A DNA stretch of 64,000 nucleotides from Eubacteriales bacterium (GTDB taxonomy: Bacteria > Bacillota > Clostridia > Oscillospirales > Oscillospiraceae). The notes below the pieces were generated by a model. The model made no database searches. It was not told the DNA's origin and saw only the letters and a list, made by a program, of their open reading frames with translations. Each line of letters starts with the position of its first letter. Position 1 is the first letter of the stretch. Location: the NCBI GenBank assembly GCA_030531505.1, contig JAUNNH010000003.1, positions 1 through 64,000 on the forward strand, in the 5' to 3' direction. A program made the position numbers and the translations under genes. Of the stretch, positions 46,218 through 62,170 are shown piece by piece.

Positions 46218-46259
46218 TTGACATTTCGTTGTAAAAACTATATATTATTTACAACGAAA
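46218..46259 (+). promoter_or_regulatory. Promoter and inverted-repeat operator of the AbiE pair
   Basis: TTGACA (46218-46223), a 17-nt spacer, TATATT (46241-46246). TTTCGTTGTAAA (46224-46235) and TTTACAACGAAA (46248-46259) are exact inverted copies that begin right after the -35 and right after the -10. The arrangement matches autorepression known for AbiEi. Confidence 0.88.
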
Positions 46260-46271
46260 CGAGGTGGTTTC

Positions 46272-46892
46272 ATGGCACGCCCTGATATTCTGAACCAGGT
46301 CAAAGTTCGAATTGGAAATGCTTCCCCCGGAGATATCTTCATTCCGGCGGATTTCTCTGATCTGGCGGAAGCGCGGAAAATCACCATGTGCCTGAGCCGG
46401 CTACATGAGGATGGGACACTGGAAAAAGTAAAACGCGGCGTCTATATGAAGCCGCGCTACAGTCAGTTGTTGAATCGGTCTGTTCCCCCGAGGGAGGACG
46501 CCGTGGCGAAAGCGATCGCAAGAAACTATGGATGGACTATCGTCCCCTGCGGCGATACGGCGCTGAACATGCTGGGGCTTTCGACTCAGATCCCGGCGGT
46601 CTGGCTCTATGTGAGCGATGGCCCGTACAAGACCTACGAGACAGACGGAGTTAAGTTTCAATTCAAGCACACCGACCGGAAAAACGAGCTCATCGGCGTG
46701 TCAGGGACGACCGCCTTGATCATTCAGGCACTTCGTGCGTTGGGAAAGGAACGCATTGATTCGCAGACCATTTCTTTTCTGTCCAGCAGATTGGATGCGA
46801 AAGAAAAACGGCAGATCCTGCAGGAGAGTCGCTATGTTACTGCGTGGATCTATGAAGCAATCAAGGAGATTTGCGGAGGTTCAGAAGCATGA
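46272..46892 (+). CDS. AbiEi-type antitoxin (DUF6088)
   Basis: 206 residues. Winged helix-turn-helix at the N-terminus (PGDIFIPADFSDLAEARKITMCLSRL..GTLEKVKRGVYMKP) and the larger AbiEi C-terminal part. It is the antitoxin/repressor of a type IV toxin-antitoxin pair and sits directly upstream of the AbiEii gene with a 4-nt overlap. ATG at 46272 follows GAGGTGG. Promoter palindromes agree with AbiEi autorepression. Lower GC than core genes. Confidence 0.88.
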   Translation: MARPDILNQVKVRIGNASPGDIFIPADFSDLAEARKITMCLSRLHEDGTLEKVKRGVYMKPRYSQLLNRSVPPREDAVAKAIARNYGWTIVPCGDTALNMLGLSTQIPAVWLYVSDGPYKTYETDGVKFQFKHTDRKNELIGVSGTTALIIQALRALGKERIDSQTISFLSSRLDAKEKRQILQESRYVTAWIYEAIKEICGGSEA

Positions 46893-47884
46893 GACGAGTT
46901 GCCAATTTGAGTGGCACCGAGCGCGAGGAGTTGTTCCTGGTCACAGCCAGAGAAAGGGCTCTGCCGGAGGCTGTGATCGAAAAGGACTTCTGGGTCTGCT
47001 GGACGTTGGATTACCTGTTTCATGATTCGCCATGGAAGGAATACCTGGCCTTTAAGGGCGGCACCAGTCTGTCCAAGTGCTTTGATCTGATCCACCGCTT
47101 TTCCGAGGACATTGACCTAATCCTTGACTGGCGGCTGGTGGGCTGTGGGAAGGACGAGCCTTGGGCTGAGCGCAGTAAGAATCAGCAGGACAAGTATAAC
47201 AAAGCGGTCAACGCCCGGACGGAAGTCTTTCTCGCGGAAGAGTTTGCTCCCAAGTTGGAGGAGAATTTCCGCTCGCTGCTGAATGACAATTTTCAGATCT
47301 GCATTGACCCAGCCGATCCGCAGACGGTTTGCTTTGCCTACCCGCGTCTGTTTTCGGAGGGCGCCATTCTCCCGATTATCCGGCTGGAGATCGGTGCACT
47401 GGCCGCCTGGACGCCGACACAGAAGGCCACGATTACGCCCTTTGCCGCCGAGCAGTATCCACAGGTGTTTGAGCAGTCCAGCACCACGCTTCGCACAGTG
47501 TCTCCGGAGCGCACCTTCTGGGAAAAGGTCACGATCCTTCACAAGGAGGCCTTTCGCACCAACGGCAAGATCCCGCCCCGTTACTCCCGGCATTATTATG
47601 ATCTGTGGTGCATGGCGCAGAGCCCGGTGAAGGACGCTGCTTTTCAAGATCTGGATTTGCTGCGGCAGGTGGTTGCCTTCAAAGATCGCTTCTATCCAGC
47701 CGGCTCTGCCCACTACGAACTGGCTAAGCCTGGCACCATGCGGCTTATGCCGCCAGAGGATTGCCTCCCCGCCCTGAAAGGGGACTATGAGCACATGAAG
47801 AACATGATCTTCGGCAAGAAGCCGGAGTTTGAAGAAGTTCTCAATACTATCGGCAAGATCAGCGCAGAAATCAACCGTCTCTAA
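46889..47884 (+). CDS. AbiEii/AbiGii-type nucleotidyltransferase toxin
   Basis: 331 residues of the nucleotidyltransferase toxin family. Core motif GGTSLSKCFDLIHRFSEDIDLIL (~58-80) carries the G-S and D-x-D pattern. PPRYSRHYYDLWCM (~230) is the conserved C-terminal motif. AbiEii-type toxins modify tRNA or other RNA with nucleotides, causing growth arrest after phage infection. ATG 46889 overlaps the antitoxin stop, with GCGGAGGT upstream. The following helicase gene is 42 nt away and may be cotranscribed. Confidence 0.9.
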   Translation: MRRVANLSGTEREELFLVTARERALPEAVIEKDFWVCWTLDYLFHDSPWKEYLAFKGGTSLSKCFDLIHRFSEDIDLILDWRLVGCGKDEPWAERSKNQQDKYNKAVNARTEVFLAEEFAPKLEENFRSLLNDNFQICIDPADPQTVCFAYPRLFSEGAILPIIRLEIGALAAWTPTQKATITPFAAEQYPQVFEQSSTTLRTVSPERTFWEKVTILHKEAFRTNGKIPPRYSRHYYDLWCMAQSPVKDAAFQDLDLLRQVVAFKDRFYPAGSAHYELAKPGTMRLMPPEDCLPALKGDYEHMKNMIFGKKPEFEEVLNTIGKISAEINRL

Positions 47885-47926
47885 GTGGGCCCATGCTAAT
47901 CTCGACGATCGGTGGTGATAGAATCA

Positions 47927-50359
47927 ATGGCCTTTCAGGATGCGGCAGTTGAAAGCGCACAGTTATATTATAAATATTTGGAAGAGAATGGCGGCGGCCT
48001 GATTACATATCGGGTGACCCAAATTACTCCGGACAAGAATTCTTTCAAGAAAAACGAATACTGGCTTCAATTGGATCAAAAGCCAAAAAATACTGACAGT
48101 TTGATGATTCGGATCCAAAACTTTGTGTACAGCAACGAGCAGATCAAACCAGTCGTTTATAACAGCCATAACCGGATACTCAAGGTGAGTTTAAATGACA
48201 GTACAAAAGGGGTTTTCGACCGGTGTCATCCGGAAGATGTTATCGTTTTTTCTGATCTGAAGTTTCTGGTACGGCGGGTGGAGGCATGGTATAAGCGCTT
48301 TGGCGGTCGCATTGCGCTGCCTGGCGGCACCGAAAAGATGGAAGCTGCTGACTGCAGCATGCTCTCAAAGGAGCCATCTGCGGATCAGACACGCGCCATA
48401 CAAAAATCCCTGTCCGAACCGTTCACCTATGTATGGGGAGCCCCCGGAACCGGTAAAACACAGTTCGTCCTGGCAAGAGCCGTGCTCTCCTATATTCAGG
48501 CGGGAAAGAAGATCCTCGTTACAGCACCGACAAACAACGCTGTCGAGCAAACACTGTATGGTATTCTCCCCGTTTTGGAAGAGGCCGGATTAGACTATAA
48601 CAAGCTTGTGATCCGCCTTGGAACTGCCAATACTGATTTCCTGGCCAAATATCCCGGGGTATGCGAAGATACCGGGTACAGTAAGGCTATCTCTGAAATC
48701 ATGGATTCTCTTTCCACTTTACAGCTCTCCATGGAAGAAACTACAAAAGCAGAACAATTGTATCAGGAGTATATTGCTTTTCAGCGCCGGAAAGCTTCTT
48801 TCGTTGATGTTGTAGAGTCGTTAAGACCGCTGATATCTCATGTTTCAGAGGCCGGTTCCCGTTTTTCAGATGCTCAATCATCTGTAGATGAGATTCTTCC
48901 TGTTATTGCAGATAATGAGGCTGCACAAAAAGAATGCAGAAGCAGTTTTGAGTTTTACAATCGACAGGCGCAGGATCTGCTGAAAAGGCTTCATAATCCT
49001 ATCTATGCCGTCCTTTCCTGGTTCAACAAAGAGGAAGAACAGAAAAAGATCGATACGGCATTGGAAAAAGCCCGCTACTATGAGGAAAAGCTTGCTCGAT
49101 TGCAATCGGAGCTCGACAGGCTGAATGAGGAAGCAGATCACCGTCAGACAATCCTTACAGAGGCCAGATCTGCCTTTGAAAAGCTGGCGCTTGATGCATA
49201 TCAGATAACGGAGTCCTATGAAGAATTATCCACTGCAGCAAAGACGATTCGCCCGGAAGACACAGCAGCTTCTCTCCAAAAGCTTACGGCAGCTTGTGAA
49301 AAAGGACTGAGTTCGTTTGATTCGGAAAGCCGGAAGTATGCGTCTGTGAGCGGTCGTGACAGCGCTTCTTTTGAAGCGGAACGAAACCAGATTCATCAGC
49401 AGATCCAATTGCTTGAGCAGAGGAAGGCAGAGTTGGAACAGGCAGATCCCAGCAAGCGGATGGAAGAATGCCTTGTCATTGCTTGTACAATCGATCTTTG
49501 CCTGAACAGGCTCCCAGTTTCAAAAGAAAACCACTTCGCCCATGTCTTTCTTGATGAAGCCGGCTATAGCTCTCTTATTAAAGCGGTAACGTTGACTGCC
49601 TATGGAAACAAAGTCACATTTTTGGGCGATCACATGCAGCTTCCTCCCGTTTGTGAAGCAGATGATCAGGAGATGAAAAGCGACAATTATCGCCTTCTTG
49701 CTCTCTGGGCCCAGTCAGCGTTATTCACAGAAGCTGTTTTCTTCGATTCACCCGAAAAACTGTGCAAGGATTATTTGAATAAGGCACCGATTCCGTTCCG
49801 AATGATGAAAAAGTATAATCTGGTCAATTCCTATCGCTTCGGAGAAGCGCTGGCCCGAGTTTTGGCTGACGATGTATACGACCGCAGCTTCCGGGGAAAT
49901 GACGGGAAAAACACGCGGATTTATTATGTCGATGCGCCAAAACGTCCAGAGCAAAAGAAACGCGTCAGCCAGGCGGAATGTGATGCCATCGAGGAACTGC
50001 TGCGCAATTATCGAGGCCTGCGCGAATCTTCCGGTATAATCGCGCCATACAGGAACCAAGTCGAGCTTCTCAAACAGATGGCAAGGCGGAACCGCTTCCC
50101 GTTTGATAGTGTTGTTACCGTACACCAGTCCCAGGGAAGAGAGTGGGACAATGTTTTCCTAAGCGTTACAGATACCACCGATAAATTCTTTACAAACTCT
50201 CTGAGTTCCGTAAGCGACGGAAAAAAAGTGATCAACACCGCAGTGAGCCGAGCAAAGAAGAATCTTATAATCGTTTGTGATTATAAGTACTGGATTGCTC
50301 AGAAAAGCCAGCTGATCGGGAAACTGCTGGCCGTAGCACAACGCTTGGATGCAGAATAA
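47927..50359 (+). CDS. SF1 (UPF1/DNA2-type) helicase with coiled-coil insertion
   Basis: 810 residues. Helicase motifs in order: I GAPGTGKTQF (~170), Ib/Ic VTAPTNNAVEQ, II VFLDEAGYSS (~540), III GDHMQLPPV (~565), V VHQSQGREWDNV (~730), VI NTAVSRAKKN (~770). Between motifs Ia and II is a ~250-residue coiled coil (~270-525) typical of some COG1112 proteins. Residues 1-150 form an extra N-terminal domain of unknown type. It lies 42 nt after the AbiEii gene. Start ATG 47927 is chosen; GTG at 47912 is an alternative. COG1112-like helicases occur in several anti-phage systems. Confidence 0.88.
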   Translation: MAFQDAAVESAQLYYKYLEENGGGLITYRVTQITPDKNSFKKNEYWLQLDQKPKNTDSLMIRIQNFVYSNEQIKPVVYNSHNRILKVSLNDSTKGVFDRCHPEDVIVFSDLKFLVRRVEAWYKRFGGRIALPGGTEKMEAADCSMLSKEPSADQTRAIQKSLSEPFTYVWGAPGTGKTQFVLARAVLSYIQAGKKILVTAPTNNAVEQTLYGILPVLEEAGLDYNKLVIRLGTANTDFLAKYPGVCEDTGYSKAISEIMDSLSTLQLSMEETTKAEQLYQEYIAFQRRKASFVDVVESLRPLISHVSEAGSRFSDAQSSVDEILPVIADNEAAQKECRSSFEFYNRQAQDLLKRLHNPIYAVLSWFNKEEEQKKIDTALEKARYYEEKLARLQSELDRLNEEADHRQTILTEARSAFEKLALDAYQITESYEELSTAAKTIRPEDTAASLQKLTAACEKGLSSFDSESRKYASVSGRDSASFEAERNQIHQQIQLLEQRKAELEQADPSKRMEECLVIACTIDLCLNRLPVSKENHFAHVFLDEAGYSSLIKAVTLTAYGNKVTFLGDHMQLPPVCEADDQEMKSDNYRLLALWAQSALFTEAVFFDSPEKLCKDYLNKAPIPFRMMKKYNLVNSYRFGEALARVLADDVYDRSFRGNDGKNTRIYYVDAPKRPEQKKRVSQAECDAIEELLRNYRGLRESSGIIAPYRNQVELLKQMARRNRFPFDSVVTVHQSQGREWDNVFLSVTDTTDKFFTNSLSSVSDGKKVINTAVSRAKKNLIIVCDYKYWIAQKSQLIGKLLAVAQRLDAE

Positions 50360-50630
50360 AAAACATTCCCCAAAAGCGACACGGTTGTTTCGGCTGTGTG
50401 TGATAGAATAAGCAAAACTAATGACTTTCCCTTCTCGCGAAAAACGGGTAGAGGCGGTGTCTGGCCACGTCCTCCTACGGTTCGTACGCTCTTCTGCATG
50501 CGGCGTATCGGCCACTCGTGGTCTCTGGTTCCTCTACGCGACAGGCAACTCTACCTATGTCTAACTGTCATTCAGCTGAGACCATAGTGTACCTTCACCA
50601 CCGAGTTGTCGCCCATGCACGGCGCGTCAG
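50360..50630. other. Noncoding gap between convergent helicase genes
   Basis: No supported gene. TGGTCTC (~50518) and GAGACCA (~50578) are inverted copies ~50 nt apart and could close a structured RNA. Nothing else was identified. Confidence 0.4.
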
Positions 50631-50666
50631 AAAACCCACCCTGCTGAAATTGGCAGGGTGGGTTTT
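50631..50666. terminator. Bidirectional terminator between the two helicase operons
   Basis: Perfect stem AAAACCCACCCTGC / GCAGGGTGGGTTTT with an 8-nt loop. Confidence 0.88.
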
Positions 50667-50688
50667 CATTCAACAACAGGTGCTAAAG

Positions 50689-53600
50689 CTAAGGTTCACT
50701 TTGATTCATTTCATGTTCAATCTTTCGTACTGCATATGGTTTAGCATATTTAAGATACGCATCACTTACATAAATCGTCTTGCCATCGCAGGGTTCAACC
50801 CACATGGCAGGATAAACAACAATTTTCTTCTCCCCTTTTGTATTTTTTGAAGATATATCGTTATCTGATGCATAAATCGGGCAATTCGATTCTTCTAAAA
50901 TGCGACTAAGAGGAAAAAGCATTTCCTTCTGGCGATAAATGGGAATAGGAGGGGCAACAACTCCATCTCGCCCCCACTTCAGAAGTTGTAACGCAGCAAA
51001 ACGGTCGAGTAAACCATGTACATATTGGTTTCTGTAATGCTTCAGGCACTTATGACAGGCATTTTCACAGTCACAGCTTTTTAGGATGTCCTCAACACCA
51101 ATCAACAGGGTTTGAATCTCTTCCGCCACTCGAACTGAATAACCTGCGCCGCTGGAAAGACTATCATATAGGTATACATCCAGGAAAACACCTGAAGCAT
51201 TGCTCCTCAAACGATAGCCGGTGACGAGCTCTGTAAATTCGATATCTAGCTCTTTACTTGCTGTAAGACGCAATGCCTCAGCGAAGGATTGAGCCGCGCG
51301 ACTTAACCAGGGATTATCCTTTCGATGTGTATCAATAACACGATCATCCAAGGCGAACTCAAGAACAAGCATATCAGTAACAAAATCATAGCCTAAGTTG
51401 ATGTTGATCGCGTTGCTATGTTTACATGGGCCTCTTAGATACTTACTCCTATAAGGGCGACGGATATTCTCCAACGCAGAGCCATCATCCCCTGGAAAAG
51501 CGGCGCCGCAGTCTTTGCAAACCATAAAACCGTGGTCCTCGCTGCCTTTATTCATCATAATGATCCGCTGGTTTTTCCGAGATGCAATACGAACATGCTT
51601 CCATCCGGGCACCGATTGCATTTCCTCTGCATCGGGGAGTGTGGAATACAGCGGTTGCTGCACTGCCGTATACTCTTCCGAAAGCTGAACTTCAGGAATT
51701 GCCTCCCCGTCTCTTGGTGCAAATCCCCAAGGGCGAAGCATTTGACGTGAATACGTCAGTTTCACATTACCACAGAAGGGGCAGACATCAACGTGATCTT
51801 CATCTAACCCAAACCATCCACACTCCGTACAGGTTTGTATGTCTTTCAGATAGTTACGATCATCAACAAATGCGCGAGCTGGTGATGCAGCACGACCGCT
51901 TCTGCGCTCACTGCCCGGGTAGTAAAAGCCACCTATCTGATAAGTACGCTTATCAACAACGATCGCACGCCCTGGGGCATATTCCCCAATTGCGACATCG
52001 AGCCCCCTCTCTACCTGATAATCCAGCTTCCCCTCGTTGTTTGATATATATGTGCTTACAACATTTTTGGGGAATGAATAGGTTGGAATTATGCCCTCCT
52101 CATATAGGGAATCCAATAGGGATTTGGCATCCTCGGCAATACTACCACTGTCCATGACACCATAGAGTTCAGGATGTGTATCACGTTTCTGCTTAAGCTG
52201 CTTCAGAGCAAGGATCAGTTCTTCTTTCCACAAAACGACATCAAAATCGTCAGTAGTATTCGGAATAAGAACACTACTCTTTATTGATTTAATCTCTTCA
52301 ATGAATTTGAAGAATCCCGCGAGACGGTCATCAAGAAATACTGCAGCAGGAATCCTATCCATGCTATCAGAACACCTCTTTAGGTACTCCTGAAGCAGAA
52401 CCATACTCAAGTGTCTCTGAATCAGTTTTTCACTTTCAATATCGATCCACGGTTTCCTTGGGTCACCACGAAACATAGGAACAGGATCTGTAAAATACAA
52501 TGTGTCATGTGGCCCGTCCTCGCAGAATGTCACGATGGTAGAGAGACTTGAACCTCGTCTACCTGCACGGCCAGCTCTTTGCTGATAGTTTTCACGCATC
52601 GGCGGAATATTACGCAGGCCGACAGCAACCAAGGAACCAATATCTATACCGACTTCCATGGTTGTAGTGCTGCTCAAGATGTCTACTGGAGTTTCATCTT
52701 TCTGGATTAAATCCTGGAAGCGCAGTTCGTACTCCTCTGTTTTAGACCACAAATTATCCCTCTGATCCTTGTGAGACAGCTGTGCCGTATGTTCTTCTGT
52801 GTCAATAACGCGAATTCTATCCCCCAGCAGTGCTTCCTCAATTGGCCTTCTCCAGAAATCTAGAGAATTGAATTCATCTGCTGTCATGATGTGAATCTTG
52901 TCTGATCCACAGCTTGGGCATCTCCCATGGAAGAGAAACGGAGTCAATTCGGAGCATTGATCACAACGATACCATGCATGCGAAGGATCAAACCGTGGCT
53001 TGATTCGCGACAAATCCACATAGAGCTTTCCGTTATCAGGCTGAGCAGTATCCAAAAAAACAGAGCGCAAGACATCTTTCCAGATGTCCATTTCCTGGGA
53101 TCGGTCATTCCAGCCGCAGATGTCTTTCATATTTTTGGAAAAGGACCAGTTCCTGTCCAGCCCATAACCACTATAGTTTGCTCGAACATCTTGGCGTACC
53201 AGGTCAGAAATAGTCTGACCCAAGGCGACCGCGGAATCCATGATGTTAATAATCCAGGCATTGAAAAACGAGAGGCATTCTTCTTCCGATACCTCGACAC
53301 CTCGTTCTTCAAGCATATCAACAGCATCAAGCAAGGCACTGTCTGTCGGTTCAATCCAAGAAACGGCGGAGTCGATTAATGTATTGTACCCTCCGCAGAA
53401 CAACCGAAGCAGATGCTTTTGCATTTGGATAGGAGCATTTGCTATTCCAAACCGCGGCTCGTATTCCCGGCCCCTTCTCTTGCTTCTCTCATAACTTCCA
53501 AGGGCTGTCTGACAGTCTTCTGCAAACTTTCTTCTTTCCGGTTCATGGAATATTTTAACATGGTTGATAGCCGCAGCAAGGCAAAAATAATCATACAGAT

Positions 53601-55956
53601 CATTCATGGACCGTTCTTTGGTAGACCGTTCCATATTTTGAATAGCAAGGGCAAATAGCTGCCGTGCTGCCGTGTCGTCAGACGCTTCGGACATATCCCG
53701 TGCCAGCCTTGCCGCTCGCTGCCGACTGTCTGAGAACAAAAGCACCTTCCTCCCCTCGTTAGGAAGAGTGTCGGATTTGTCAGTTTTTCCGGCGACCGGT
53801 GGCTGTGACAGAAACTGGGATTTTATCAGGTTAAAAAACGACTGATTTCCTCTCGTGCTGAATGAGCTGAGCTGTGATTTGGAAAGCTGGTGCAAACAGT
53901 GCGGACACGTTGGAAAAGTCAGAGTCTGAGGACGGCCTTTAGCGGAATAATTACAATAGTATAATTTCCTAATCCCTGGCTTTCCGGCTTTTGAATCATC
54001 GTGAAAATCGATAAATCCGCTGTTGATATCCAAATAGCACGGACGAATGGGGTTTTTGCCTTGCTTTTTTTCCAGACGAAACTCACTTGATGGAATGAAA
54101 AGATGGATTTCTTTCATTTGACGATCCATTAGCTGGCCGGGATAATGCCAGAGGTAAATACGATTACGCTCGGCAAGATCATCTTCCAAGATATATCCCT
54201 TATAATATAATGCGCCGCATCTTCGATCATTATATAATTCATATACGACACTATGACAATGCGGGCAAGTCATGTGCCCATCAGCCAGGAACACCTCACC
54301 CAGGGTTAAGCTCCCATCTGTATGTGAGTGCAGACATTCTGCGTTCGCGCAGGCATATACGCCCTTGATTCCTCGAAAAAGCATGTGCATACGAGCGGGG
54401 AAAAGCACAGCGTTCTTTCTGCTTTTTGCTAATGGGGCAATGGCTAGGAGCACCCCCACAGCGAAAAGCGCATTATCAGGCAGCTGATCCGGGAATATTC
54501 TGGCAGCTAATTCTGAGAGAGAAACGGCTGCTCCTCGGCACTCGTTAATAAGGACATGAAACGGACGATATTCAATCAGCTTGTTGTACATCCATTCATA
54601 TGCACTTGTTAAATCTGCGAATGGCGCCGCAGATCCATCTACTCCTTTCCAAAATTCATTTAGCGCCTGCAGGCATGTGGCTTCATTTTCAAAGCAATCC
54701 GGGTCAGAATGAAGAATCTTGTCAAAAGGTATATCGTACACAAGCCTGCCGCTGACATCTTCCCGCTCGCCTGATAAATAGCAGAATTTGGTGCTATCGT
54801 CTGAAGCAGTGAGCTCCAACGCAAACTTCTTAACAGCTGCTTTGTCTTCCTGGTTCTTGTTAGGCATACTGGCAGTTGTCAGAATGAACTGCACTTGATC
54901 CCGTGTTATTTTAAGTTTATGAAAAAGCCTACGGATTAAAAGCGCGACCTCGCCCCCGGAAGACCCGCGATACATATGTGCTTCATCAATAATGAATAAC
55001 AGCTTGTTCTGCTTATCTGCATTAAGCCATGCCTTCGTCTGCTCCCATACTTTCGCTTCTTGTGGTCTTAAAAGCATATATTCGAGCATGGAATAGTTTG
55101 TAATAAGAATATCGGGGCAAAACTGCTGAATCTCATATCGCGTAATCAATTCCGCATCATCATCGTTTGGAATATGCTGACCCGAATGAAGGCGCTCCAA
55201 GAAGCTCCCCATATCCGTTTTTGCTGGGATTTTCCCTTCTTCTAAGAGTTTATTGTAATATTTTTTCTCTTGATCGTCTTGGGGCGAGGTCATCCGTTTC
55301 AGCGTTCGTTCCAGTTTGTGATCTTCGGAACTTCTAGGTTCAATGCCAGGGTAGGGTGTGCGTCCCGTATACATCCCGAATTGAGGCCTGCGGACATCAC
55401 CACCGCAGGTTTCTCTGAAAATGCAAATGAACTCATTTTGGGGGTCTCCAATCAGTCTCCGTAAGCGGCTGACTTGATCAGAAACGAGGGCATTCATGGG
55501 ATACATGATGATGGATCTGACGCCTCTGCTCTCCCATGTGTCAGGGTGATCGTGTGCTTCGGATGTTAGTTTTGCAAGGAGTGGCCACATAAAGCATTCC
55601 GTTTTACCAGAACCCGTGCCAGTAGAAACGAACAGGTCTGAGCCCTCGTATGCGCGTTCCAAAGCTGTAATCTGATGATTAAACGGAGCAGGGAACACCC
55701 CCAGCCCAGCGTCAGATAGTTTGATAAAGTACGATTTAAGCCAATCGGGAATCTGGGCAGCCCTTATTCCATCTTGTGTTGTCTTATAAGCTGGCGCAGA
55801 CTCAATATAGGGCTTTTTATACAGCAACCCTTCCTTATCGAGGTTTTCTTTAATTGCACCAAGCAGGAGCGGGGATTTTCCAAAATACTGCGACTTGATA
55901 TAGTCTTCAAGCTCATTTCTTAGCTTGAAGTGAATAGAGTTCGCACCACTCGACAT
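50689..55956 (-). CDS. Large DEAH-box helicase with DUF1998-like C-terminus (DruE/DrmA-like)
   Basis: 1755 residues. SF2 motifs: I STGTGSGKTE (~111-120), Ia MYPMNALVSDQ, II FIIDEAHMYRGS (~321-332), III LTTASMPN, V STTTMEVGIDIG (~1100), VI YQQRAGRAGRRGS (~1122). Several Cys-x-x-Cys pairs occur in the middle (CDQCSEL..CPSCGS; CTECGW..CPFCGN). The C-terminal DUF1998-type cluster CDCENACHKCLKHYRNQ..GLLDRFAAL (~1625) follows SLSSGAGYSV. This plan is shared by DruE of Druantia, DrmA/DrmB-type DISARM proteins and MrfA. It is the last gene of the four-gene operon, with GGAGG before its ATG. The translocation substrate is probably DNA, by family. Confidence 0.9.
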   Translation of the reverse strand: MSSGANSIHFKLRNELEDYIKSQYFGKSPLLLGAIKENLDKEGLLYKKPYIESAPAYKTTQDGIRAAQIPDWLKSYFIKLSDAGLGVFPAPFNHQITALERAYEGSDLFVSTGTGSGKTECFMWPLLAKLTSEAHDHPDTWESRGVRSIIMYPMNALVSDQVSRLRRLIGDPQNEFICIFRETCGGDVRRPQFGMYTGRTPYPGIEPRSSEDHKLERTLKRMTSPQDDQEKKYYNKLLEEGKIPAKTDMGSFLERLHSGQHIPNDDDAELITRYEIQQFCPDILITNYSMLEYMLLRPQEAKVWEQTKAWLNADKQNKLLFIIDEAHMYRGSSGGEVALLIRRLFHKLKITRDQVQFILTTASMPNKNQEDKAAVKKFALELTASDDSTKFCYLSGEREDVSGRLVYDIPFDKILHSDPDCFENEATCLQALNEFWKGVDGSAAPFADLTSAYEWMYNKLIEYRPFHVLINECRGAAVSLSELAARIFPDQLPDNALFAVGVLLAIAPLAKSRKNAVLFPARMHMLFRGIKGVYACANAECLHSHTDGSLTLGEVFLADGHMTCPHCHSVVYELYNDRRCGALYYKGYILEDDLAERNRIYLWHYPGQLMDRQMKEIHLFIPSSEFRLEKKQGKNPIRPCYLDINSGFIDFHDDSKAGKPGIRKLYYCNYSAKGRPQTLTFPTCPHCLHQLSKSQLSSFSTRGNQSFFNLIKSQFLSQPPVAGKTDKSDTLPNEGRKVLLFSDSRQRAARLARDMSEASDDTAARQLFALAIQNMERSTKERSMNDLYDYFCLAAAINHVKIFHEPERRKFAEDCQTALGSYERSKRRGREYEPRFGIANAPIQMQKHLLRLFCGGYNTLIDSAVSWIEPTDSALLDAVDMLEERGVEVSEEECLSFFNAWIINIMDSAVALGQTISDLVRQDVRANYSGYGLDRNWSFSKNMKDICGWNDRSQEMDIWKDVLRSVFLDTAQPDNGKLYVDLSRIKPRFDPSHAWYRCDQCSELTPFLFHGRCPSCGSDKIHIMTADEFNSLDFWRRPIEEALLGDRIRVIDTEEHTAQLSHKDQRDNLWSKTEEYELRFQDLIQKDETPVDILSSTTTMEVGIDIGSLVAVGLRNIPPMRENYQQRAGRAGRRGSSLSTIVTFCEDGPHDTLYFTDPVPMFRGDPRKPWIDIESEKLIQRHLSMVLLQEYLKRCSDSMDRIPAAVFLDDRLAGFFKFIEEIKSIKSSVLIPNTTDDFDVVLWKEELILALKQLKQKRDTHPELYGVMDSGSIAEDAKSLLDSLYEEGIIPTYSFPKNVVSTYISNNEGKLDYQVERGLDVAIGEYAPGRAIVVDKRTYQIGGFYYPGSERRSGRAASPARAFVDDRNYLKDIQTCTECGWFGLDEDHVDVCPFCGNVKLTYSRQMLRPWGFAPRDGEAIPEVQLSEEYTAVQQPLYSTLPDAEEMQSVPGWKHVRIASRKNQRIIMMNKGSEDHGFMVCKDCGAAFPGDDGSALENIRRPYRSKYLRGPCKHSNAININLGYDFVTDMLVLEFALDDRVIDTHRKDNPWLSRAAQSFAEALRLTASKELDIEFTELVTGYRLRSNASGVFLDVYLYDSLSSGAGYSVRVAEEIQTLLIGVEDILKSCDCENACHKCLKHYRNQYVHGLLDRFAALQLLKWGRDGVVAPPIPIYRQKEMLFPLSRILEESNCPIYASDNDISSKNTKGEKKIVVYPAMWVEPCDGKTIYVSDAYLKYAKPYAVRKIEHEMNQSEP

Positions 55957-55958
55957 GT

Positions 55959-56969
55959 TTATTCCTCCACAAATTGATAACCTGTCGTTTCAAAAGTGCT
56001 TTTAATATCTTCAAATACGCTCGTGCTCATAATCCTTCTGAAATCATTAGGATAATCTATGTAAGCATTTGGCCAACTGTATAGACGAATAAGATTTAAC
56101 TCTTCTGGGGGATAAAGGTAAGCGATGTGAAGATAAACAACATCTCCATCAATGCTGTATGTGGACGGAGGAAGCGTTTTCTGCGTATAGAGGCAAGCAT
56201 TGGACAGACGCCTATAATCATACTCTGTTGTCATCCATGCTGGGAGTTGAGAAACAAGCATTCTTTCCTTTACTGCCCGATACAAATAATATGTAGTTGC
56301 TCCCGGAACCACACGTCTTGCAAGTGATACGGTGTCATCCAGATCCGGCGTATCTTTCCAGTATCCATAGCCAAAGGGTGGTTTGAGTCGTAGATACTGG
56401 AAGGCTGTCACACCTGAATACTCAGACCAATGAGCTTGCGAAACTATCCCTTTCCATGTGTCAAAAAATGGCTGTTTTTGTAATAGAAACATTTCCGAGA
56501 GACTTACTCTTTTGTTTTCAGCCTCTTGTTGCACAGGGTAGTAACATCCTAAGCCGCTAACATACCGCTTCTCACTGATCGTATTTCCCCTAAGATATAT
56601 ATTATTAATTCCAACTCCTACTTTACGCTGCGGTGCAACAAGTCGGTTGGGCTGGTGATAAACCGTCCCGGATTCTTTAAATACTCGGAAAATCTCGCTG
56701 CTTTGCTGCTCGTATTCAAGTGAAAATGCGGAGATCATTTCGGGGTAAATGTCAAGGAGAGATTCAAGCGTGCTCTCGATGCGCCGTTTGAAATGCGTGA
56801 TACTGGCTGGTTGAAGATCCTCTTGTATATCCCATAGAGATGAATAGCCTGTCTGACCAAGAAAACTATATATGACCCTGGACATCCATGAGGATTCACT
56901 CTCCTGAATGCCTCTTTTTATGTAAAACTCTTTGCTGATTGAATCAAGCAAGCTAAAATAATCTGTCAT
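55959..56969 (-). CDS. Unknown protein of the DUF1998-helicase operon (336 aa)
   Basis: No recognised domain. A helical N-terminal third (~1-90, with SSWMSRVIYSFLGQTGYSSLWD) is followed by a mixed region rich in aromatic residues (FGYGYWKDTPDLDDTVSLAR, RRVVPGATTYYLY, AYIDYPNDFRRIM). No signal peptide or membrane helix. Its start overlaps the 889-residue gene's stop (ATGA), and its stop is 2 nt before the helicase start. It must be produced in step with both. In length it is close to DruD-type proteins, but I cannot claim homology from sequence reading. Confidence 0.8.
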   Translation of the reverse strand: MTDYFSLLDSISKEFYIKRGIQESESSWMSRVIYSFLGQTGYSSLWDIQEDLQPASITHFKRRIESTLESLLDIYPEMISAFSLEYEQQSSEIFRVFKESGTVYHQPNRLVAPQRKVGVGINNIYLRGNTISEKRYVSGLGCYYPVQQEAENKRVSLSEMFLLQKQPFFDTWKGIVSQAHWSEYSGVTAFQYLRLKPPFGYGYWKDTPDLDDTVSLARRVVPGATTYYLYRAVKERMLVSQLPAWMTTEYDYRRLSNACLYTQKTLPPSTYSIDGDVVYLHIAYLYPPEELNLIRLYSWPNAYIDYPNDFRRIMSTSVFEDIKSTFETTGYQFVEE

Positions 56970-59635
56970 TGAGACTCTCCCACAAGTTGCTCAACCGGAT
57001 AATCATTCTTATACTTTTCTAACACGTCAGTTTTATCGAGGAAAAGCGCAAGAGGCTCAAGCACAAAGATGTAATCGTTATCAATCTTTTTATCTGGAAT
57101 CAATTGGTGATAATCAGTGAGGATGCGCTGTATCGTGTTTTTCGCGATGAGACTCAATTTCATCTCCTGAAGAAGCTTGGAATAGCACTCTCTGACATCA
57201 ATATCGGTTTTCGGCACGAATGCCTTAAAAGGTTCTGCCATACGCCCTCCCAAATAGTTCATGGTGGGCGCAGAATCAACGAGCTTATCTGTAAACATTG
57301 GGAAACAATAGTTGATCAAACTGTTCGGTTCAATTGCGAGATCCTCGGCAAAGGGATGAACCAATATGTAGTATCTATTTCTGTTAGAAAGCAATTTAAG
57401 AACGCTTGGGTACCAATCGTGCTCAAACGGGTTCTCAACAATAACGACTTCTGTGTCTGAATTGCTGCATTTTCTGAGGTCATTTTCATTGTAATCCCCG
57501 CCACAATGAAGTGTGGCCGGAGTACATCCAAATAGCGCGAGCGAAAACGCGTTTGCTATTTCGTTGCCGTTAGGGCCAGCCATAAGAATCGGCATTTTAT
57601 TCAAATAGGCAGCGTACAGAAAGCCTGATAAAGCGACTATTTTGTCGGCGGCCACTCCGGCTTCCGGAAGCTCTGCTTGAAGGTTGAGTAATAACTCCCT
57701 CCAATCGTTGCTGACCTCCAGGTCATCTGCGTTGCAATATTCTCCATTGCTAAAACATGGGAAAGCCAAAGAAGTGGTTGCCTCATATGGATTCTGAGCT
57801 GGCAAAGAATGAACAAAAGCATTTTCTGCAATAAAACTCGCCGCGTTTTTCCTGGCTTGTTCTATCTTGGCGTTCACTTGTTCTTCAACATCGGCGGCGA
57901 GCTTTTGTTTGGATTGGATTTGCTTTTGCAGAGCATCTATCTGACCCTCAAGAGCTGCAAATTCCTTCGTTTTCCTTTCCACAAGGGCTTGCTGTTTAGT
58001 GCATTCTTCTTCAATATCTACTAATTTTTGCTCAGCTGCATTGAGCAACTCTTGATTATTATCTTCCCACTCTTGGCGCAGTTGTCTTTGGCATTCTTTA
58101 AGTAAACCTTCATTGTTTCTGATGATTTGCACCATTATATCGTTTTCAGGTGTTCTTCCAGCTAAAATGCTGTCCGCCTGATTAACGAACAAGGCTATAT
58201 ACTGTTTTGCGTCTTCAAGGCTACAATCACATTCAGACGAAATATCGTCCATTAGGGTTTCAACTTCTATTTCAGACAAGAAATTTCTTACTTGCCGCAC
58301 CTCAGAAGTAGAAAAGCCTTTTTGCTTTAGGACAGATTTTGTAATTCGACGAAGAATAACATCTCTTGTAACTTCAACAGGGTTTTTCACTTTTATTATT
58401 CTTGAAGGAAGACCTGTACTTAAATAGCGGAAGAATACTTTACTGTCGATCCGTACCATGTCATTTTCTGTAAAGGTAAACTCAGCAAGAGATAATATGT
58501 TTTGGCTCAGATAGAATCCGCCATCATATTCGTTTAAATATTCCGAACTGCATAGCAGCCCCTCATATTCAGCACCGTTAAAAAAGGCAAGTAATAGCTT
58601 TTGCGGAACAATTGGTACAGACACTCCTTCTTTTAACCTGTCCACCAAATCATAAACGTTGCTGCAATCGTCCCTTATTATGATTTCAATCGGAACAAAA
58701 GATGAATTATACGAAGTTAGTATTCTTTCTTTCTGAGGATCAAGCTCATTGCTGGTTACTGTCCAGTCCCAAATCCCATAGGTTCCTTCTTGCTTTGGCC
58801 CATCTTTTTGATAAAGCCGAGTCCTGGAAGGAGTTTCATTTAAAAAGACACTACTAATTTCACCATCTATTGTAATATCGGCGCATCTGTCAAGGCGATC
58901 ACGTCCGCGATCATCATAATATTTTCTACACAACGAGACAACTGTGTATCCTGGGGCGGGAGAGTAGTCAGTTTTACTGATTGCATACTTTGCCAAGCTC
59001 CTATAACCATCCAATTCATCCTGCATTTCTGTGAGTTGAATATTATTTTGCTCAACTTTTTGGTCAATGGAAGCCTTAGCCTCTAACAGTTCACTATACT
59101 CTTTTTGCAATGCAGAAAGCTTTTCATCACTTTCTAATATTTTCGCTTTAGCCTCCGCTTCAATCCGATCTGCTTCCTCCTCAGCCGTTTTTGCCGCTTC
59201 CTCCGCTTGCTCGAGTCTTGCCCTCAGTTCAATCGCATATTGCGTCATAAGTATGTATTCTTCTGGATACTGCTCTCCGGACAGGAGGAAGAATAGTTTA
59301 ATCTGATTGGAAAAAACGCTCTTTGATAGAGTTTCGGTTATAGCATCTGTAAGGGCTTTGCCTTCGCCTACAAGCGCGTTTATATGGTCATGGATTTCAT
59401 CAAGCCACTTTTGGACGCCAACATTAATAAAATCACAAACAAACCCTTCGTCCCGGTTTTTAATTACGAAAGAGAAGGTTTCCTCTTCAGACGCCTTTTT
59501 TAAGTTATAGCCGAGTTTTATTTTATTTAATTTCTCAGGGTTTTTGCGGAAGAAGTCCTTAAAGTTTCGCGCAGATATTATTCTACACAGTGATAAAAGA
59601 TCATCATTGCTGAGGTCGACAACATAGTTTTTCAT
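56966..59635 (-). CDS. 889-residue coiled-coil protein with degenerate P-loop-like domain
   Basis: Four parts are visible: an N-terminal helical domain (~1-135), a first coiled coil (~140-215), a central globular region (~220-520) and a second coiled coil (~540-640). The C-terminal ~240 residues look like a AAA/P-loop fold. After KMPILMAGPNGNEIANAFSL (~675-695) come ALFGCTPATLHCGGDYNENDL and TEVVIVENPF, the expected places of Walker A, sensor and Walker B. The Walker A lysine is absent (GPNGNEIA), so ATP hydrolysis is unlikely. The start has AAGGAGAT. Second gene of the operon. The fold assignment is inference. Confidence 0.8.
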   Translation of the reverse strand: MKNYVVDLSNDDLLSLCRIISARNFKDFFRKNPEKLNKIKLGYNLKKASEEETFSFVIKNRDEGFVCDFINVGVQKWLDEIHDHINALVGEGKALTDAITETLSKSVFSNQIKLFFLLSGEQYPEEYILMTQYAIELRARLEQAEEAAKTAEEEADRIEAEAKAKILESDEKLSALQKEYSELLEAKASIDQKVEQNNIQLTEMQDELDGYRSLAKYAISKTDYSPAPGYTVVSLCRKYYDDRGRDRLDRCADITIDGEISSVFLNETPSRTRLYQKDGPKQEGTYGIWDWTVTSNELDPQKERILTSYNSSFVPIEIIIRDDCSNVYDLVDRLKEGVSVPIVPQKLLLAFFNGAEYEGLLCSSEYLNEYDGGFYLSQNILSLAEFTFTENDMVRIDSKVFFRYLSTGLPSRIIKVKNPVEVTRDVILRRITKSVLKQKGFSTSEVRQVRNFLSEIEVETLMDDISSECDCSLEDAKQYIALFVNQADSILAGRTPENDIMVQIIRNNEGLLKECQRQLRQEWEDNNQELLNAAEQKLVDIEEECTKQQALVERKTKEFAALEGQIDALQKQIQSKQKLAADVEEQVNAKIEQARKNAASFIAENAFVHSLPAQNPYEATTSLAFPCFSNGEYCNADDLEVSNDWRELLLNLQAELPEAGVAADKIVALSGFLYAAYLNKMPILMAGPNGNEIANAFSLALFGCTPATLHCGGDYNENDLRKCSNSDTEVVIVENPFEHDWYPSVLKLLSNRNRYYILVHPFAEDLAIEPNSLINYCFPMFTDKLVDSAPTMNYLGGRMAEPFKAFVPKTDIDVRECYSKLLQEMKLSLIAKNTIQRILTDYHQLIPDKKIDNDYIFVLEPLALFLDKTDVLEKYKNDYPVEQLVGESQ

Positions 59636-59647
59636 AATGGATCTCCT

Positions 59648-61189
59648 TCATTCTTTCTTTGCGGAGAGTTGACTTATTAAATACTTCATCGCTTTTCTAG
59701 GCGCAGTCCCTCTCCTGATCGCCTGATAAAGCCACTGTTTTGTTTGAGGATATTTCTCCAGTTGAGCAGCAAGCGAACCATAACGATGAGGGACGTGCAT
59801 TTCGTTTCCATGAAATGATGTTAGAACCGAGACAAAACGTGCATCTTCTGTAGAAAGAGCGGTTTCTGCAGCTTTGGTAAAGGATGCAGACCAGATTATA
59901 TCTAAGCCAACAAGAATCTCGATCTCCGTTCCAAAATCGATGCTATCGATCGAGCAAATGATCTGTGAAGAAATACTACGTCGGTCACTTACTGCACCGT
60001 TTTTTCGGATGATGGCTTTTCCGTCATATGGGACTAAAACCTTTATTATTTCCTTTGACGGTAAGCTGCTATTTGTTCCGGGCATAATAGTGTTCCCGTT
60101 AATATCCTGAACTTGGATTTCTAACGCCTCGCCAACTTGATCCAGCGACTCCCTCCAATAATACAAATACTGCAAAACGTTTGCTCGCCCTGATGAAATC
60201 AACTGCTGTCTTCCATTGCAAGGAACTTTTGAGATTTGTCCGTATTTTGAGCAGGCGAGAGATCTGACAGACGCGTACGGAAAAGTGGAGATTCTTTTTT
60301 CCCGCTGTCCATATGAATGAATAACAAGAAAATCGTCAGGATGTTTTATCACATAGGGTGTTTTTATATGTAAAGGCCAAATGGGATTTACTTGAAGAGG
60401 GAAATCTGTCAGCCGGTAGTGGAGCGATAAGAAAAACTTTGCAGCCTCAATGTCTAACTCCGTTGCTTCGACTAAATAAAGGTTCCAAGTAACCCCACCC
60501 GAGCAAACTTTATTCTGTAGGGAAAACAATATACTGGGGCTAGATTCAGATAATTGACTTGTAGTTAACAGATAGTATTTTCGCCGTACAAGTACATCAG
60601 AATCCGTAGTCAACATTTTCCCAGTCTGTGAGTCGAACAGACTTCCTTCTTCACTAATTCCTTTTACTGTTTTCGGCCAATATGTTGTCAATTGTTGTGG
60701 TGAAATGACCATATATTTTTCGGAAGGGATGTTACCAACTGGAAGATATGTAATAGCATCATCTTTAAAATAATCATCAAAAGAATATGTATAGCTTATT
60801 TTGTCAGAAATCCTGATTGTTACAACTTGTGCCTTACCACTTCGTAGAATGTCCTGTGGCACATAAAGGAAGCCAAGTTCCAGATGAAATATATCTCCTT
60901 GACATACCAGTTTAATTGGCAACTCATGCTCACCTTTATTAATCGGTGTATACCACGAACCAAATGTTCTCTCTGGACAGCTTTTATTATCCTCATATGA
61001 GCTGTGTTTAAAGTGTCTTACTTGCTTATTACCTCCTGTTAGAGACACATATTGTTGGCATAGTTCACACATAAAAATGCCACTGTGTGCAGAAACGGTT
61101 CCACCCGGATAAAGCTTAGCAGCTTCTTCCGCTGAAACTCGAATCCAGCCATGTTCAGACCACATGCAAACATGATTTAAAGCTGCCAC
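59648..61189 (-). CDS. CoiA-like zinc-binding protein, first gene of the helicase operon
   Basis: About 513 residues. The N-terminal ~85 contain a CoiA-like zinc site: FMCELCQQYVSL..QVRHFKHSSYEDNKSCPER (C-x2-C, H-x2-H, C). The rest is a long mostly beta region without recognised motifs, ending in a helical YPQTKQWLYQAIRRGTAPRKAM. GTG 61189 has GGGGTGA 5 nt upstream; TTG 61204 is an alternative. 12 nt separate its stop from the 889-residue gene. CoiA-like domains are linked to DNA processing, in line with a defence or nucleic acid sensing role. Confidence 0.72.
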   Translation of the reverse strand: MAALNHVCMWSEHGWIRVSAEEAAKLYPGGTVSAHSGIFMCELCQQYVSLTGGNKQVRHFKHSSYEDNKSCPERTFGSWYTPINKGEHELPIKLVCQGDIFHLELGFLYVPQDILRSGKAQVVTIRISDKISYTYSFDDYFKDDAITYLPVGNIPSEKYMVISPQQLTTYWPKTVKGISEEGSLFDSQTGKMLTTDSDVLVRRKYYLLTTSQLSESSPSILFSLQNKVCSGGVTWNLYLVEATELDIEAAKFFLSLHYRLTDFPLQVNPIWPLHIKTPYVIKHPDDFLVIHSYGQREKRISTFPYASVRSLACSKYGQISKVPCNGRQQLISSGRANVLQYLYYWRESLDQVGEALEIQVQDINGNTIMPGTNSSLPSKEIIKVLVPYDGKAIIRKNGAVSDRRSISSQIICSIDSIDFGTEIEILVGLDIIWSASFTKAAETALSTEDARFVSVLTSFHGNEMHVPHRYGSLAAQLEKYPQTKQWLYQAIRRGTAPRKAMKYLISQLSAKKE

Positions 61190-61256
61190 ATTTTCACCCC
61201 ACAAGCACTTCTGTCAAAAGCTAATGCTATCGTAATATTTCTGGCTTTTTGTGTAA

Positions 61257-61283
61257 ATTATACCATGGTTTTCTCGATATTAA
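61257..61283 (-). promoter_or_regulatory. Possible promoter of the four-gene operon
   Basis: Minus-strand TATAAT (61257-61262), preceded by TGG, with a poor TTAATA -35 at 15-nt spacing. About 65 nt upstream of the start codon. Confidence 0.4.
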
Positions 61284-61289
61284 CAGACC

Positions 61290-61915
61290 AAGTCGTTGTT
61301 TTTAGCAGATTGATGGCTTTTTGTGACAGCAGCTCTTGTAATCCGATCTTACATCGAAAAATCCTAATGGCGCACTTCTATACGGGTCAGCTTCGGCTGG
61401 CCCGTTTGCTTATTCTTGGGGGCTGATTAACACTTTTCCTTTTGATTGGGAAATCAAAACCGTGACCGCCGGAGGCAGGAACCGCGGCGGGAGACGCAGA
61501 GTGATTCGAGGGATTGGGGAGCGAAATCCCCAACAAGTGCCGGAGGGCACAAATTCATTTTTGGCAGACGATACGAAACTTGCTCTTAGCAAGTTTTGAT
61601 CTCGGAACGAACAGGCAAAAACGAATAAGTGTGGCACAAGGCGAATCTTGCTCTCAAATTGTTTGCAGCCATAATCCATTTTCTTTTTGAAAAAGCTCGC
61701 CTTAGTCTGTATGTTTTTTGAAAAAATACACTCTCAATGTCATAAAAGCGCCTTGCCAGCTGCCTCGGATAATAGAGGCAGCTTTTTTCTTTGGCGAGCG
61801 GAGAAAATGTTTTTTCAGAGGGTTGTAAAAACGCCTTTCTCTCTGCCTAGCAAGTGAAGGGGTATTTTGTATATGGAAAAGAAAAACTTGGAAAACTATA
61901 TGGAGAGGTGAGCAA
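61290..61915. other. Noncoding stretch with mobile-element-like sequence
   Basis: No gene with a convincing start. A hairpin ACGGGTCAGC / GCTGGCCCGT lies near 61381-61404. 61440-61570 is GC-rich and contains repeated GGAG/CGGAGG segments; it resembles noncoding stretches I associate with clostridial conjugative elements. I see no integrase, attachment site or tRNA. Confidence 0.4.
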
Positions 61916-62170
61916 GTGGAAATTGACGTCAAAGACAAGGAAAAACGTGTGAACATCTGGCTCACCCGTGCGGAGAGCCAGGACCCCGCAGTGCTGGAGT
62001 CCCTGAAGCCGATCTATCAGGAGTACAAGACCAAAAAGTATCTGGTGGCGGTGTTCTCGTCCGGCACCGAGGACTTGAAAAGCCTGACCTGTGATCTGCT
62101 GCGCTACAACCGCGTCCGGCTGCGCGAGCCGGAAAAGCAAAAGGAAAAGGCGCACGATTACGCCAGATAA
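61916..62170 (+). CDS. Small conserved protein typical of Firmicutes conjugative elements
   Basis: 84 residues beginning (GTG start, GGAGAGGTG upstream) EIDVKDKEKRVNIWLTRAE and containing YKTKKYLVAVFSSGTEDL and LLRYNRVRL. This small cytosolic protein, of unknown role, recurs on Tn1549/CTn-type elements in gut Clostridia, as I remember it. It is a marker of a conjugative-element remnant at the right end of the island. A terminator follows 7 nt later. Confidence 0.7.
   Translation: MEIDVKDKEKRVNIWLTRAESQDPAVLESLKPIYQEYKTKKYLVAVFSSGTEDLKSLTCDLLRYNRVRLREPEKQKEKAHDYAR

Follow-up and report, generated by a model that had tools for sequence, protein, structure and literature searches.

A druB-druC-druD-druE operon of the Druantia type I lineage, from a clade in which no DruA was found, in a Eubacteriales genome

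The window that we have studied, by which we mean the whole stretch of 64,000 nucleotides taken from contig JAUNNH010000003.1 of a Eubacteriales bacterium (assembly GCA_030531505.1), holds a run of four genes that are almost certainly druB, druC, druD and druE of the Druantia type I lineage, and these genes belong to a clade of such operons in which no DruA was found. We consider it likely that together they make up a DNA-processing, anti-phage operon. In other words, what is a Druantia system that has no DruA, and what might it do? A first-pass annotation, made from the letters and without database searches, had read the genes as an undescribed defence system on a Druantia-like plan. The likeness to Druantia has stood, although it is more than a likeness of plan, being one of descent; what also stands is a defence-type helicase operon of widely recurrent order and without DruA, but it is not undescribed, for the four proteins belong to Druantia type I. 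That annotation would have given up its reading if all four proteins clearly matched a named system, and this is largely what was found: judged by sequence, DruE and DruD are identified by direct match and DruB and DruC via family profiles, DruC least firmly.

The four proteins and their families

DruE is the plainest case. The 1755-residue protein matches the PADLOC model DruE1 at 1728.6 bits over residues 2-1751 (the next-best DruE type reaches 626 bits), and Pfam finds DEAD, Helicase_C and MZB (3e-10) in it, MZB being what we take to be the former DUF1998, so that the DEAH-DUF1998 helicase of the first-pass annotation holds. For comparison we used a set of 94 loci, made up of the best 80 of 550 confirmed relatives in named genomes, ranked by likeness to the window, and 14 others; the nearest relative among those 80 is the locus L027 of Ruminococcaceae bacterium RUG13650, with 82% identity in DruE. 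When two type III rows and one Nostoc row were placed outside, with types II and IV left out, the window's DruE fell inside the 83-row group of our tree with support 100. An inactivated Vsr domain is predicted at the end of type I DruE in the part of PMC12458937 that we consulted; over residues 1660-1755, the single position conserved at 90% or more in the 83 rows is a proline, and none is acidic or a histidine.

The 336-residue protein, which the first-pass annotation did not recognise, is DruD. It matches PADLOC DruD1 at 8.4e-9 over residues 7-330, and 38 of the 40 members of its family match that model (PDLC00008).

DruB and DruC had to be approached by a longer road. The first of them had been called a CoiA-like zinc protein, which agrees with weak Pfam matches to CoiA_N (0.0022) and DUF7830 (5.8e-5), both under the Pfam cut-off, and with a zinc motif that is invariant throughout the family alignment (Table 1), the conserved residues of which are otherwise few. 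The second had been called a coiled-coil protein with a broken P-loop; it does give coiled-coil-type matches in profile searches, and its P-loop-like AGPNGNE is without the Walker lysine, which is found at that place in none of 44 rows, the pattern G....GK[ST] occurring in 1 of 83 family members and at a different place. The zinc finger of B aside, neither protein gave anything below 1e-3 in PADLOC, Pfam, NCBIfam or PHROGs. Because the window's B and C had no significant direct match, we collected relatives for family profiles, and the family alignments use 46 of 65 B, 44 of 70 C and 40 of 71 D rows available from named loci, the window being counted among the rows used.

Iterated hidden Markov models (HMMs), each seeded with the window's own B, C or D and run over the 1439 called open reading frames of the 94 loci, matched 83 B, 83 C and 89 D proteins, and they reached DruB, DruC and DruD of a Pseudomonas putida plasmid operon, the first gene of which carries the annotation Druantia protein DruA. 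Matches off the expected position came from one rearranged locus (L043), from one whose contig ends before DruE (L025) and, for B, from two more (L092 and L101). When 22 rows of the window's group were set by hhalign against 9 (B), 7 (C) and 9 (D) rows from DruA-bearing loci, the families met their canonical counterparts at 97.9% and 5.8e-13 over 246 columns for DruB, at 94.9% and 4.1e-8 for DruC, and at 95.7% and 8.8e-9 for DruD; all six cross-family control pairings stayed at 0.04-0.40%. Finally, certain members of the clade alignments fit PADLOC DruB1, DruC1 and DruD1 nearly perfectly (best E 7.1e-266, 0 and 2.2e-166), and some operons of this kind are therefore probably already included in type I by the PADLOC authors. 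That the window holds a new and unrelated multi-gene defence system, one that merely uses a DruE-like helicase, would suit the silence of B and C in the databases; against these family profiles, clean controls and near-perfect matches, it is scarcely tenable.

Other affiliations were looked for as well. The profiles of DruB, DruC and DruD gave coiled-coil or chance-level matches, or none, against solved structures; the idea that the end of DruC is an inactivated McrB/CnuB-like GTPase, as in CoCoNuTs, was unsupported by these searches, no direct test of it having been made. Two of 44 DruC-family members weakly match DruG2 (best 9.3e-4), which we have taken for an effect of the coiled coil. In the three companion proteins PADLOC found no match to DruH of type III, nor to DruM, DruF, DruG or DruL of types II and IV. 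DISARM is marked by the methyltransferase DrmMI or DrmMII, the PLD nuclease DrmC and a split DrmA/DrmB (in part after the portion of PMC12458937 consulted). As the first-pass annotation had said, no DISARM methyltransferase or PLD nuclease is matched in the four proteins, and the best DrmA match, at 36.3 bits, covers the helicase core only. DISARM and ARMADA do have a YprA-family helicase in common with the window, and some of the window's relatives have a methyltransferase neighbour; they differ in that among the four proteins there is no BrxHII-like helicase, PglX-like methylase or PLD nuclease. Type III (druH-druE) shares a homologous DruE, but has DruH in place of B, C and D, and its DruE ends in PLD nuclease domains, according to the part of PMC12458937 seen.

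The closest named comparison is type I itself (druABCDE), for example on P. putida plasmid pKF715A (L004), which shares with the window the B-C-D-E order, the four families, a full-length DruE1 and a DruC with no Walker A. The window differs in having no DruA, in a DruE that is about 32% identical, and in a DruC of 889 rather than 625 residues, the N-terminal extension of which is not DruA-like. Feature by feature, then, the window has a Druantia DruE, of the type I branch, and DruD, DruB and DruC; it has no DruA.

Recurrence of the operon and the absence of DruA

The first-pass annotation had seen no DruA, and wider searches agree. PF14236 (DruA, DUF4338) was found in none of ten operon-bearing genomes, the window's included (4 of the 10 are under 90% complete), and in 3 of 3 positive-control records. 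A six-frame search placed DruA in 11 of the 94 loci, or in 8 of 91 without three plasmid loci (L004-L006) that were picked by hand and two of which seeded the DruA profile. Fusion of DruA into B, C or D was ruled out (hhalign at most 0.19%).

Where do the eleven fall? In a DruE tree of 83 rows and 1640 columns (LG+G4, with support from the Shimodaira-Hasegawa-like approximate likelihood-ratio test, SH-aLRT), from which duplicates (L038 of L021, L048 of L016) and rows under 1600 residues had been dropped, all of them lie within a side of 15 rows, and not one of the 68 rows on the other side, to which the window belongs, has DruA (support 100). The split survives rooting with two type III DruE, the 68 rows having support 100 and the 15 rows 94. 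Four of the 15 rows on the DruA side (L085, L090, L093 and L100) are also without DruA in the locus. The DruA-less state thus marks the whole clade in the loci examined, and therefore a distinct variant of Druantia type I. The loci were ranked by likeness to the window, so the DruA-less share is no census.

What the clade does keep is the rest of the operon. Recurrence of the gene order was one of the checks that the first-pass annotation had proposed. Where a clade row has 1.5 kb or more of upstream sequence, as 53 do, B, C, D and E are all there, and in 52 of the 53 they follow in order on one strand. Over the whole clade the four genes are present in 61 of 68 rows; each of the seven remaining rows has its first dru gene no more than 532 nt from a contig end. 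The genes are tightly packed, with median gaps of -4, -4 and -1 nt over 78, 82 and 86 gene pairs, reckoned from the outermost possible start codons. A split gene occurs in L032 and in L056, and three loci are rearranged, with D, C and B on the opposite strand after E (L043) or with A and B after E (L092, L101); L038 and L043 were left out of one set of conservation counts. Going by record titles, its members belong to Bacillota, Bacteroidota, Pseudomonadota, Planctomycetota, Thermodesulfobacteriota and Mycoplasmatota (mostly gut bacteria), and as metagenome assemblies are the source of many loci, some of these names may be mistaken. One relative is found in Clostridium ljungdahlii (L049). Within the window's own class, a DruE1 match at 1e-180 was found in 9 of 391 genomes, its own included. 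These operons have the window's B, C, D and E and no DruA, and they are in part covered by PADLOC DruB1, DruC1 and DruD1.

A second set, from IMG/VR contigs, contains 16 loci. Two of them, with DruE above 1400 bits (L128, L129), hold a C5 methylase followed by B, C, D and E, and no DruA; six have DruE at 500-630 bits, and DruA is present in four of these six. Of those four, one matches the D profile alone, and weakly. A search of viral contigs with DruD alone confirmed nothing. A Nostoc plasmid (L124) carries a two-gene unit, a 361-residue protein that matches no A-D profile and a DruE-like helicase of 1912 residues.

Several points count against what we have argued so far, and they are best seen together. 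The direct PADLOC matches of the window's DruB to DruB1 (0.041) and of its DruC to DruC1 (E 4.7) are insignificant. The C-terminal part of DruC alone reaches 51.7% and 1.5e-4 over 55 columns in hhalign, and its middle part gives 0.41% against the canonical DruC N-terminus, so that the DruC match, the weakest of the four assignments, is in part a match of coiled coil. The HMM and hhalign results are not fully independent, because the iterated HMMs recruited both sets of hhalign rows. Three DruA-bearing IMG/VR loci (L131, L132 and L135, with DruE at 535-596 bits) give no B, C or D profile match, and therefore a DruE of this kind does not always have B, C and D as partners. The tree is a quick one, with SH-aLRT support only, long branches, uneven composition and types II and IV left out. 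The window's genome is 73.9% complete, which leaves room for DruA elsewhere. DruA being one of the five genes of type I, the operon falls outside the formal definition of that type, which is described as 'five genes called DruABCDE' in the section of PMC13316683 that we saw. And no phage test was found for this operon or for any DruA-less member.

The locus and its setting

The layout given by the first-pass annotation proved exact: four open, intact minus-strand genes, with spacings of 12 nt, a 4-nt overlap and 2 nt (Table 1). For druB, we prefer the GTG start at 61189, because relatives start near the same HVC(M/V)W segment.

Table 1. Coordinates of the operon, its motifs and the neighbouring AbiE pair, as positions in the window.
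Feature	Position	Strand	Details
druB-like gene	59648..61189	-	513 aa, GTG start; N-terminal CoiA-like zinc finger
druB-like gene, alternative TTG start	59648..61204	-	518 aa
DruB zinc motif C41, C44, F60, H62, C71 (513-aa numbering)	60977..61069	-	invariant in 46/46 rows of alignment A3
druC-like gene	56966..59635	-	889 aa; coiled coils and C-terminal NTPase-like stretch without Walker A lysine
Degenerate P-loop-like GPNGNE of DruC	57560..57577	-	44 rows, no Walker lysine
druD gene	55959..56969	-	336 aa; PADLOC DruD1 match
druE gene	50689..55956	-	1755 aa; superfamily 2 DEAH helicase, MrfA-type zinc domain
DruE motif I (Walker A) TGTGSGKTE, residues 112-120	55597..55623	-	9/9 positions invariant in the 9 rows of alignment A1
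DruE motif II DEAH, residues 324-327	54976..54987	-	invariant in the 9 rows of A1
DruE motif VI QRAGRAGRR, residues 1126-1134	52555..52581	-	7/9 positions invariant in A1
DruE MZB zinc cysteines C1628, C1630, C1634, C1637	51046..51075	-	at least 90% identical in 83 rows
AbiEi/AbiEii pair	46218-47884	+	PADLOC 6.8e-60 and 9.5e-108

The AbiE and superfamily 1 (SF1) helicase neighbours that had been noted are both there: AbiEi, AbiEii and the SF1 helicase adjoin the operon downstream on the opposite strand. The SF1 helicase (47912-50359) has a counterpart in the same place in L027 (13592-16027), with 62% identity over 808 residues; as it was seen near DruE only in the window and L027, among the 94 loci, we dropped it as a candidate fifth gene of the operon. 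Over 50300-61700, promoter-like matches did not exceed shuffles (14 against 20.9), and terminator-like matches numbered 14 against 9.3.

The operon was probably acquired horizontally. Counted in 2-kb steps, G+C runs at 0.40-0.47 across 50001-62000 against 0.52-0.70 across 1-44000. Distribution in the genus is patchy: among 61 same-genus genomes, the operon was found in the window's own (an assembly of 2.24 Mb) and in one other, G713, which is probably the same genome as L027. We looked for an empty site of the island, and the sole same-genus genome with strong matches to both tested flanking genes (G687) has them on different contigs, so that the island's boundaries could not be drawn.

What the operon may do and what it would mean

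We infer the anti-phage function, as well as the formation of a complex, its substrate, its sensing part and the route by which phage DNA is damaged. DruE would load where phage DNA that is replicating or broken is single-stranded, and travel along the DNA by ATP hydrolysis, while DruB, with its zinc finger, DruC, with its coiled coil and its NTPase-like stretch without the Walker lysine, and DruD would form a sensing or scaffolding part that decides when DruE acts. Damage might come from unwinding, from a block to replication or from a host nuclease, because no active nuclease is recognisable by sequence in the four proteins. For type I, the literature consulted, seen in part, turned up no mechanism, and the suggestion that B, C and D may sense and gate DruE draws on analogy with type III. 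In the portion of PMC13192584 available to us, DruE is the part common to all Druantia types, the type III DruE is a helicase-nuclease that engages phage replication intermediates containing single-stranded DNA, and in DNA-bound type III structures the single strand is seen to enter the core of the helicase. Taken whole, the mechanism proposed here has, to our minds, an even chance of being right.

Could the DruA-less branch instead practise modification-linked restriction, in which a methyltransferase marks self DNA and B-C-D-E attacks DNA that is unmarked, the window's copy having lost its methyltransferase or borrowing one? BREX and DISARM are thought to work in this way, by methyltransferase self-marking and attack on unmarked DNA. 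In one DruA-less subclade, a D12-type adenine methyltransferase of 279-320 residues lies directly 3' of druE, on the same strand and with a gap of -3 to 54 nt, in 12 of 16 rows (L022, L071, L072, L074-L077, L080, L082, L094, L102 and L104). In another, 7 of 10 rows (L050, L052-L057) have ahead of druB a C5 methyltransferase, an Eco47II-type endonuclease or both (6 loci for each gene), and the two IMG/VR loci L128 and L129, in which the C5 gene alone was searched for, have a C5 gene there also; a more distant one lies 1.85 kb after druE in L086. Pfam confirmed every representative examined (4 of the 12 D12 as PF02086, 2 of the 6 C5 as PF00145 and 2 of the 6 Eco47II-type as PF09553).

These neighbours make the modification-linked reading worth attention, but several observations leave it, to our thinking, unlikely. 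The other four rows of the first subclade (L078, L079, L081 and L083) show no D12 gene with 9.8 kb downstream in view, and the C5 and Eco47II-type pair may form a type II restriction unit in its own right. There is no methyltransferase near the window's operon, nor any PF02086 or PF00145 match in its incomplete genome, and its 31-row subclade has no D12 match. The C5-profile matches in that subclade are short open reading frames before druB (L030, L031 and L047); such frames, of 85-92 residues, are found also in L057, L072, L074 and L077, and they align with the first 64-73 positions of the C5 profile, at which the C5 protein of L050 has a Cro/C1-type helix-turn-helix. The alignment being to the helix-turn-helix part and not to the methylase, we read them as small regulators, perhaps of the operon and of Cro/C1 type.

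Returning to an active B-C-D-E operon, one must ask whether it is active at all. A canonical type I system that had recently lost druA, and was decaying and inactive, would also show no DruA in the locus or in the recovered genome, and four rows on the DruA side are without it in the locus too. We think this improbable, since DruA occurs in none of the 68 clade rows, of which 39 are flanked on either side by 2.5 kb or more, and the two IMG/VR loci assigned to the clade by DruE score lack it as well. Moreover, the window's four genes are open, and between the window and L027 the amino acids are conserved (dN 0.28, 0.29, 0.25 and 0.11 over the four genes) with synonymous sites saturated.

A host DNA-repair operon like MrfA/YprA, and not defence, is a further thought, for the helicase family includes repair enzymes (PMC12458937, in the part consulted). 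It is very improbable: the DruE profile matches the large helicases 9tu7 and 9wae in the PDB at 476.8 and 430.7 bits against 94.5 for YprA, the window's protein is matched end to end by DruE1, and patchiness in the genus, low G+C and AbiE neighbours also speak against it.

We do not claim discovery of the clade. We claim only that we found no description of its DruA-less state and its methyltransferase neighbours: among open-licence PMC papers, our searches listed none with a title or abstract opening on a DruA-less Druantia or on a Druantia with D12 or Eco47II partners. Some such operons may be overlooked by annotation rules that require A, B and C, because neither DruB nor DruC of the window has a significant PADLOC match.

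What might all of this mean for Druantia? The retention of B, C, D and E across a large clade, none of whose 68 rows has DruA, suggests that the core does not include DruA; the operon would then offer a four-gene minimal Druantia system. We would tentatively go one step further, to a view that we hold as possible rather than probable, and picture type I as a B-C-D-E core that suffices by itself, to which interchangeable side modules are joined: on one side of the tree the module is DruA, while on the other one subclade has an adenine methyltransferase, a second has a C5 methyltransferase with an Eco47II-type nuclease, and the window's own has none. If the neighbouring methyltransferases mark self DNA, the way in which Druantia tells phage from host becomes testable. 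If the picture is true, DruA-less Druantia would count as a separate type, and those of its members that bear a methyltransferase would link Druantia to BREX- and DISARM-like modification systems.

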